64,000 nt of DNA from Marmoricola sp. (GTDB lineage: Bacteria; Actinomycetota; Actinomycetes; Propionibacteriales; Nocardioidaceae): assembly GCA_025964775.1 (NCBI GenBank), contig JAOPYE010000004.1, positions 1 to 64,000 of the forward strand. The letters run 5' to 3'. The position numbers were made by a program, and so were the translations under genes. The notes beneath the pieces were generated by a model. That model saw only the letters and a program-made list of their open reading frames with translations, made no database searches and was not told where the DNA came from. The first letter of the stretch is position 1. Each line of letters begins with the position of its first letter. This document shows positions 43,529 through 60,762 of the stretch, piece after piece.

Positions 43529-43848
43529 CGACCCCGATCTTCCACGTGGCCCTGGCTGCGGACTGGGCAGCAGCGCAGGCGAGCGGCGAGTACGCCATCT
43601 CAACTCGGGGTCGCACCCTGGCCGAGGAGGGCTTCATCCACGCCTCTCGCTCGGACCAGTGGGAGGCGATCCGCGCCCGCTTCTACGCCGGTGTCACCGA
43701 GCAGGTCCTCGTGCTGGAGATCGATCCCGACAGGCTCACCAGCCCGGTGGTCGTCGAGTACGTCGCCGAGGCGGGCCAGGAGTTTCCGCACATCTACGGA
43801 CCGATCAACCTCGACGCGGTCGTCCGGGTCGAACCCCTCGACCAGTAG
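43525..43848 (+). CDS. DUF952 domain protein
   Basis: IFHVALAADWAAAQASGEYAISTRGRTLAEEGFIHASR. Confidence 0.85.
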   Translation: MTTPIFHVALAADWAAAQASGEYAISTRGRTLAEEGFIHASRSDQWEAIRARFYAGVTEQVLVLEIDPDRLTSPVVVEYVAEAGQEFPHIYGPINLDAVVRVEPLDQ

Positions 43849-43938
43849 CCTCGCCTCATGATCCTCGCTGCGCTCGTCAATGAGCTCTCGGCCACTCGGT
43901 CTCGAGCAAGCTCGGACCCTCGGTAGCCTCGGCTCATG
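43846..43938 (+). repeat. Dispersed repeat copy 1 with promoter-like ends and a 22-codon mini-ORF (43858-43926), abutting ribF start
   Basis: About 78 nt matching 59875-59952 with 10 mismatches by hand alignment. Confidence 0.85.
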
Positions 43939-44898
43939 CGTGTCTGGCATTCCCTGGAGCAGGTTCCGGCTGATCTCGGCCGGACGGTTGTCGTCATCGG
44001 CAACTTCGACGGCGTGCACCTCGGCCACCAGCACGTCATCGGCCGGGCGCGCGAACTCGCCGACGAAGCCGGGATCCAGCTTGTCGCCGTGACCTTCGAC
44101 CCGCACCCGATGGCGGTGCTGCGCCCTGACCACGCTCCACTGACCCTGACCGACGTCGCAGCAAGGTGCGAGCTGCTCGCTGCTGCGGGTGCCGACGACG
44201 TGTTCGTGATCCCCTTCTCCCGCGAGATCGCTGCGTGGACCCCGGACGAGTTCATCGAGAGGGTGCTCGTCGACGGCCTGCACGCGTGCGCCGTCGTCGT
44301 GGGCGCGAACTTCCGGTTCGGCAACCGTGCGGCCGGTGACGTGGCGACCCTGATCGCCGCGGGCCGCGGCGCGGATTTCGTGGTCGAGGGAATCGCTCTC
44401 GACGGCGGCCCGCAGGTGTGGTCCTCGACGTACGTGCGCACCTGCTTGCTCGCCGGCGACGTCGAGGGTGCAGCCGAAGCGCTCGGCCGCCCGTACGCCG
44501 TGACCGGTGAGGTCGTCAAGGGCGATCAGCGCGGCCGCGAGCTCGGCTTCCCGACCGCGAACGTCCCGACGCGCGGCATCGCAGCCCCTGCCGACGGCGT
44601 GTACGCCGGCTGGCTGCGTCGCCTCCCGTCGACAGGCTCAGGACGAGGGACAGAACCGGACTCGACCCCGCTGCCGGCGGCGATCTCGGTGGGCACGAAC
44701 CCGACCTTCGACGGAGAGCGCGAGCGCCGGGTCGAGGCCTACGTCCTGGACCGCACCGACCTCGACCTGTACGGCGCACGGGTCGAGATCTCGTTCGTCG
44801 CCCGGATCCGGGGCATGGTCGCGTTCGAGGGCATCGAGGCGCTGGTCGAGACGATGAAGGGCGATGTCGTCCGGACCCGAGAGATCCTCGGTACGTGA
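43936..44898 (+). CDS. ribF: Bifunctional riboflavin kinase/FAD synthetase
   Basis: VVVIGNFDGVHLGHQHVI, VTFDPHPMAVL, GFPTANV, VGTNPTF. Confidence 0.95.
   Translation: MRVWHSLEQVPADLGRTVVVIGNFDGVHLGHQHVIGRARELADEAGIQLVAVTFDPHPMAVLRPDHAPLTLTDVAARCELLAAAGADDVFVIPFSREIAAWTPDEFIERVLVDGLHACAVVVGANFRFGNRAAGDVATLIAAGRGADFVVEGIALDGGPQVWSSTYVRTCLLAGDVEGAAEALGRPYAVTGEVVKGDQRGRELGFPTANVPTRGIAAPADGVYAGWLRRLPSTGSGRGTEPDSTPLPAAISVGTNPTFDGERERRVEAYVLDRTDLDLYGARVEISFVARIRGMVAFEGIEALVETMKGDVVRTREILGT
44621..44660 (+). repeat. REP-like insert inside ribF containing GTCGACAGGCTCAGGACGAGG
   Basis: In-frame sequence RLPSTGSGRGTEPDST between GVYAGWL and PAAISVGTNPTFDG, which are normally close together. Confidence 0.65.
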
Positions 44899-59862: not shown

Positions 59863-59955
59863 TAAGTTGGGCGCATGATCCTCGCTGCGCTCGTCAACGC
59901 GTCCTCGCCCACTCGGCCTCGAGCAAGCTCGGGCACTCGGTAGGCTCGGCGCGTG
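59863..59955 (+). repeat. Dispersed repeat copy 2 with 22-codon mini-ORF (59875-59943), abutting thyA start
   Basis: Matches 43858-43935. Confidence 0.85.
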
Positions 59956-60762
59956 CAGAGCTACCTCGACCTCGTCCGCCGGATCCTGGACGACGGTGTC
60001 GAGAAGCCGGACCGCACCGGGACCGGCACGCTGTCGGTCTTCGGGCACCAGATGAGGTTCGACCTCGCCGAGGGCTTCCCGCTGGTGACCACCAAGAAGA
60101 TCCACACCCGGTCGGTCTTCGCCGAGCTGCTCTGGTTCCTGCGCGGAGACACCAACGTGAAGTGGCTCCAGGACCGTGGCGTCACGATCTGGGACGAGTG
60201 GGCCGACGAGAACGGCGATCTCGGTCCCGTCTACGGCTACCAGTGGCGGTCCTGGCCGACCCCGGACGGCCACCACGTCGACCAGATCGCGCAGATCGTC
60301 GAGCAGTTGCGTCGTGATCCCGACTCGCGGCGGCACATCGTCTCCGCCTGGAACGTCGCCGACATCCCGCAGATGGCCCTGGCCCCGTGCCACACGATGT
60401 TCCAGTTCTACGTGGCCCCCAGCGACACCGGCCCCGGCAAGCTGTCCTGCCAGCTGTACCAACGCTCCGCCGACGTGTTCCTCGGCGTGCCGTTCAACAT
60501 CGCGTCGTACGCGCTGCTGACCCAGATGGTGGCGCAGGTGACCGGCCTGGGCCTCGGCGACTTCGTGCACACCCTGGGCGACGCCCACCTCTACACCAAC
60601 CACCTCGACCAGGCCCGGCTCCAGCTCACCCGTGAGCCGCGTCCGCTGCCCACCCTGCGGCTGGACCCGTCGGTGACTGCGCTGGACGCGTTCGACCTCG
60701 AACACATCACGATCGAGGGGTACGACCCGCACCCGGGGATCAAGGCCCCGATCGCTGTATGA
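59953..60762 (+). CDS. thyA: Thymidylate synthase
   Basis: [51 protein letters not shown]. Confidence 0.98.

Follow-up and report, generated by a model that had tools for sequence, protein, structure and literature searches.

At the start of ribF, the window (the whole 64,000-nucleotide stretch of DNA analysed here) carries a small dispersed repeat that we call type A, and a second copy lies at the start of thyA. The parts of the element are collected in Table 1. The ribF copy is matched by our covariance model, R1, at 43858-43938 with an E value of 9.4e-21. An earlier note on this DNA had pointed to a duplicated -10 and start codon motif, and indeed the window contains TAGCCTCGCCTCATG (43846-43860) and TAGCCTCGGCTCATG (43924-43938) and no third match, even with up to two mismatches allowed, where chance predicts 0.05. 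Its observation that the repeat recurs before thyA also holds, the copy at 59874-59956 being identical at 72 of 83 positions (the note had counted about 10 mismatches in 78). The extent that it gave, 43858-43935, shifts to 43860-43937 once the unit is set in RT|G phase. The TAG at 43846-43848 makes up the first three bases of the native ribF -10 box and at the same time terminates the preceding gene; the same overlap is present in G020, a relative without the element.

Table 1. Features of the type A element at ribF and of its second copy in the window.
Feature	Coordinates	Strand	Remarks and basis
Native leaderless promoter and start of ribF before the insertion	43846-43859	+	-10 TAGCCT at 43846-43851, N6, AT of start codon; agrees with empty ribF sites in relatives such as G020, cagtaggctcgacccGTGCGT
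Inserted type A element, 78 nt	43860-43937	+	GATCCTCGCT...GGCTCAT; splits start codon between T and G; copy search, empty sites, model R1
GNA minihairpin	43864-43876	-	CGAGCGCAGCGAG; GCGNAGC loop and tandem G.A motif; covariation 7:19 and 10:16 in the 81-column alignment
Guide arm	43880-43892	.	ATGAGCTCTCGGC; partner of the element's right end; 10 pairs, 9 with two-sided changes
Inner hairpin and flanking Y:R pair	43895-43922	.	CGAG-CAAG-CTCG; helix 3; varies in other copies
Element-borne -10	43924-43929	+	TAGCCT; alignment columns T67, A68 and T72 invariant in 43 copies
Right-end arm	43926-43937	.	Partner of guide arm; covariation
22-codon open frame (leaderless mini-ORF)	43858-43926	+	Stop TAG within the element's -10; translation
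ribF	43936-44898	+	Start codon half element, half native; ribF found in 23/24 genus genomes
Second type A copy, within the thyA start codon	59877-59954	+	Repeat comparison, empty sites, model R1

The insertion junction was fixed from empty and filled ribF and thyA sites in up to 24 genomes. At thyA, the empty sites read gcaggtaggttggctccATG|CAGAGC (G006) and ggtaggttaggggtATG|CAGAGC (G020), and the filled site of G000 reads ggtaagttgggcgcATG|ATCC...TAGGCTCGGCGCGTG|CAGAGC. Similarly, G020 has an empty ribF site (cagtaggctcgacccGTG|CGTGTG) and G000, G016 and G017 have a filled one, while the ribF start of G009 and G019 holds other members of the repeat family and that of G005 a remnant. From this comparison, the native promoter and RT stay on the left, the element brings a -10, a 6-nt spacer and a new RT, and the native G then serves as the last base of the resulting start codon. 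The 78-nt unit thus appears to have entered between the T and the G of the native RTG, a phase that we infer from the type B junctions described below and from the covariation of the right-end R with the internal arm; shifts of one or two bases yield an identical product. The 5' TAGCCT-N6-ATG is thus the original promoter and start, and the 3' one belongs to the element, which rebuilds both.

The earlier note had proposed either a mobile repeat inserted with target duplication or a transposable uORF and promoter cassette. What survives is a small dispersed repeat at a leaderless start that brings a promoter-like -10 and a start codon. Target duplication does not, as the empty thyA sites are nearly all ATG whereas the 3' codon of the filled sites is mostly the element's GTG, and the 5' -10 and ATG, seen in the empty sites, are the native promoter and not a product of duplication. 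Nor does a conserved reading frame, to which we return below.

The window's own genome (Nocardioides/Marmoricola clade, 3.9 Mb in 53 contigs) contains 15 copies with E<1e-7. All of them have a start codon directly before them, usually behind a -10-like box, and the right end of each falls precisely on a gene's start codon. The genes behind these copies are presumably ribF, thyA, purC, a permease, a dut-like gene, a leucyl aminopeptidase-like gene and others, as far as N-terminal similarity could be recognised by eye. Random choice among intergenic RTG triplets, estimated from the window, would fall on gene starts in about 22% of cases, which gives 15/15 a p of about 1e-10. The repeat is present in 12 of the 24 genus genomes, with up to 35 copies in one and with tandem arrays in relatives. 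In a genus catalogue of 104 copies whose 3' end is of the promoter type, 97 lead into an open reading frame of 60 or more codons; of the remaining seven, six lie in the interior of tandem arrays and one is truncated where its contig stops. A start triplet, RTG or TTG, directly precedes 94 of the 104, and TANNNT lies 5-9 nt upstream of that triplet in 79, compared with 1.3% of random RTGs. Only copies with that 3' end entered the catalogue; the 15/15 of the own genome is the figure free of this condition. The native promoter before the copies usually follows TANNNT-N6-RTG, the leaderless type; in high-GC actinobacteria, leaderless genes are marked by a TANNNT some 12 nt ahead of the start (PMC3160421).

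Copies at different loci share a fold. In alignment A1 (43 non-orthologous copies, 81 columns), we counted 22 pairs in three helices, with 95.1% of the cells forming pairs compared with 83.5% after shuffling, and with 109 two-sided changes against 34.7; none of 500 shuffles reached as many, and slid controls collapse. The four strongest mutual-information pairs all belong to the structure, and one of them, 26:77, uses all four Watson-Crick pairs. In the long helix, an internal arm AYGNNN pairs with the right end NNNCRT. The 5' hairpin, read on the antisense strand as CGAGCGNAGCGAG, has a GNA loop and a tandem G.A motif, and the latter is found again in the other helices. Hairpins of the d(GCGNAGC) type are exceptionally stable. 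Wobble counts (15 vs 20) leave the strand undecided, and energies from folding single sequences do not stand out. The GNA loop and the tandem G.A motif do favour one strand, and the fold is most likely that of the antisense single strand. The earlier note had missed this covarying structure, as well as the second insertion site described below. In some longer type A copies (L122, L144, L157, L159 and L166), the inner hairpin is preceded by an additional inserted palindrome, GGCACC..GGTGACGTCACC..GGTGCC.

How the pairs change over time suggests what the fold is for. Between loci with 13 or fewer differences, 49% of changed pairs are compensated and 22% broken, whereas between orthologous copies in different species 47% are broken and 23% compensated, the latter comparison being small (34 pairs, not independent, some of the orthologous copies possibly separate insertions). 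Since pairing is compensated between loci and mostly broken between orthologs, the fold seems to serve the spreading of the element and not local regulation. The target flank also resembles the right end slightly: shared runs average 2.0 nt compared with 1.08 nt after shuffling (p 0.0005, 33 loci, nested and tandem copies left out as far as the pattern filter allowed), a weak effect, and RT alone is nearly fixed in the flank.

A sister repeat, type B (GATCGTCGCTNCGCTCCTCAACGC...CGCGT), enters at a point further upstream. Its 26 copies, some of them orthologous, lie at T|ANNNT-N5-10-RTG; the repeat inserts between the T and the A of the -10 hexamer and restores the T. In 11 of the 26, type B is nested in a type A copy and splits the known sequence CTCGGT|AGCCTCGACCCGTG, the T|A of the element-borne -10 being the entry point, with almost no homology between the insert and its entry site. 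Moreover, the promoter of a PAC2-like gene holds type A at RT|G in G000 and type B at T|A in G017. At a leaderless start, the type A and type B points correspond to +2/+3 and -12/-11. In the open promoter complex, the junction lies at -12/-11 and the non-template strand is single-stranded to +2 (PMC4593229). We infer that the two insertion points correspond to the two edges of the RNA polymerase open complex.

The same architecture extends beyond the genus. Covariance model matches occur in 19 of 299 genomes, in 5 of 26 genera, elsewhere in the family, and they are rare in the class (5/395 genomes). Among named genomes, a 25-nt pattern matches in Nocardioides marmoriginsengisoli, N. pocheonensis, N. 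marmorisolisilvae, and Marmoricola and other Nocardioidaceae MAGs. Marmoricola RYN_197 (G016) is a close relative of the window's genome, with a RibF 96% identical. Several relatives lie antisense to a gene whose end they touch: they supply the 3' end of a tRNA gene (His, Gln, Arg, Phe and one unclassified) or abut the end of a CDS. The tRNA-end relatives (L065, L126, L164, L334, L333, L339 and L348) come from several genera, and the tRNA-Gln site is used in four genomes. Placement at start codons and -10 boxes is thus a habit of this clade, and the T|R junction is more general. As the 3' ends of tRNA genes and CDSs are not promoters, targeting of the transcription bubble cannot be general.

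The open frame at ribF invites a different reading. The earlier note had translated it correctly as MILAALVNELSATRSRASSDPR*, and it could belong to a functional leaderless uORF or attenuator cassette, in which translation of the mini-ORF opens a hairpin hiding the main start and thereby couples the gene, the cassette having spread by useful regulation. With few exceptions, type A copies do keep a start codon in front, usually a leaderless-like one; the right end that bears the RTG is paired with the guide arm; and in most 86-nt variants the frame ends in an RTGA overlapping the gene start. The frame itself, however, has no coding signal: synonymous changes are not enriched (0.256, compared with 0.407 and 0.216 in the two alternative frames), variation peaks at codon position 1, and some copies have 1-nt deletions or other lengths that break it. 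In the 78-nt form the frame stops at a TAG 12 nt before the RTG. Furthermore, the pairing decays at fixed loci and the element's own -10 makes coupling unnecessary. From its pattern of substitutions, the 22-codon frame is probably incidental, and we regard a regulatory cassette as unlikely; the data are better explained by a folded mobile repeat. In the 86-nt variants L013, L014, L015, L141, L142 and L143, the mini-ORF is shifted and its TGA overlaps the gene start (GTGA), which occurs in 6 of 7 copies but represents only about four independent loci.

It is also conceivable that a mobile repeat without any targeting enters many short RT|R sites, and that selection spares only those insertions whose split feature, be it a start codon, a -10 box or the end of a tRNA gene or CDS, the element rebuilds. 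This would account for the fact that RT|R plus a restored split feature is the sole rule common to all contexts. Nevertheless, about 78% of the intergenic RTG sites in the window are not gene starts, and other intergenic insertions should survive, yet the copies of the own genome sit at starts 15 times out of 15; we hold this reading to be possible, though doubtful. Far less credible to us is homologous recombination or gene conversion between similar leaderless promoters in place of transposition. In its favour, the left flank resembles the right end more than expected and tandem arrays do occur, but the junction is exact although the native flanks differ widely (compare L007 TAAGTTGGGCGC with L014 TAGGCTGAAGAG), exact single-copy insertions without flank similarity are already common, and the nested type B copies share almost no homology with their entry site.

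Weighing these readings together, we consider a folded mobile repeat that rebuilds split leaderless starts the probable explanation of the whole. Type A, as the sequence comparisons presented here show, is a non-coding, folded, site-specific repeat, mostly of 78 nt, which splits the T from the G of the start codon of a leaderless gene and leaves the product unchanged. In this scenario, type A and type B would be non-autonomous mobile elements, whose fold may be recognised by a transposase or recombinase acting in trans, with the internal guide pairing with the element end as in IS200/IS605 and REP elements. Melted promoters may be the target in this clade; re-supply of the promoter would make the insertion nearly harmless, and the mini-ORF would be a by-product of the old start codon left in place.

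Several known systems resemble the element. MIRUs are seemingly mobile repeats at start codons, with a coupled ORF and little harm to the gene (PMC12548453, PMC2734929). Both are intergenic, dispersed and tandem, and placed at start codons, with MIRUs measuring 40-100 nt and the elements described here 70-90 nt. However, a MIRU couples translation through an ORF that overlaps the gene start by 4 nt (RTGA), an overlap that the 78-nt form lacks; our element instead brings in a -10 and start of its own, its ORF shows no conservation, its GNA hairpin lies on the antisense strand, and a second form splits the -10 box. With the MIRU motif, the sequences have only the GAGCGNAGCGA hairpin motif in common, in opposite orientation. 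Repeats with a MIRU-like motif in one genus of the class also carry GAGCGNAGCGA, often between RTGA-like sites, and several copies read RTGA...GAGCGNAGCGATGAGGAGGAG...RTGA. These MIRU-like repeats (L365-L380) reach 13 matches per genome, some in tandem arrays of 51-55 nt, with the same GNA hairpin motif.

In IS608, an internal guide pairs with the element end (PMC5934647). As in this IS200/IS605 member, the element inserts 3' of a short fixed target that is kept in the left flank, without target duplication, and its guide pairs with its end: 9 of the 10 pairs of the helix covary on both sides, the match to the target side being weak. In contrast, the Y1 transposase (PF01797) occurs in none of the 24 genus genomes, with positive controls, so it was rejected as the mobiliser; moreover, the 6-nt duplex is extended by an inner helix, and the element is 78 nt long and gene-less. 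REPs are likewise short, structured, dispersed and non-autonomous, and the CGTC-tagged palindromic REPs also have no known transposase (PMC3733652), but REPs are single hairpins of 20-40 nt without placement at start codons or -10 boxes, unlike the 70-90 nt multi-helix fold found here. An Rfam search returned one chance match only, outside the element and under the gathering score. The element works most like a MIRU; since it lacks the defining features, namely the 4-nt ORF overlap of MIRUs and the Y1 enzyme of IS200 and RAYT-mobilised REPs, it is filed under neither.

It is tempting to speculate, with considerable reserve, that an actinobacterial superfamily of gene-less, guide-duplex mobile repeats inserts as single-stranded DNA at both edges of the open complex and rebuilds the split -10 or start, and that the tRNA-end members and the mycobacterial MIRUs belong to it. 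The consequence at hand is a base-precise change of promoter at many housekeeping genes (ribF, thyA, purC, csrA, cysK-like and lpd-like genes) with the protein undamaged. Moreover, since this family displays its junctions, empty sites and nested insertions together with a covarying guide duplex, the old puzzle of what moves MIRU-like repeats and how they reach start codons becomes testable. Should open promoters be the target, it is transcription itself that steers insertion.

Some minor observations accompany these results. Matches to the 5' pattern in other phyla and orders (L169, L191, L195-L197, L199 and L201) look like chance, the rest of the element being absent, and the 5' hairpin sequence of L338 (G294), inside an apparent coding region, is probably chance too. 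In G020, GC skew over 20 sampled stretches was too noisy to place the origin for an analysis of replication-strand bias. Finally, the coding region of ribF contains GTCGACAGGCTCAGGACGAG at 44628-44647, with similar 20-mers (mostly TTCGACAGGCTCAGGACAAG) at nine other places in the genome; this segment may be a second, different dispersed repeat inserted in frame. In G000 and G016, the ribF match exceeds that of most close relatives by 27 nt.
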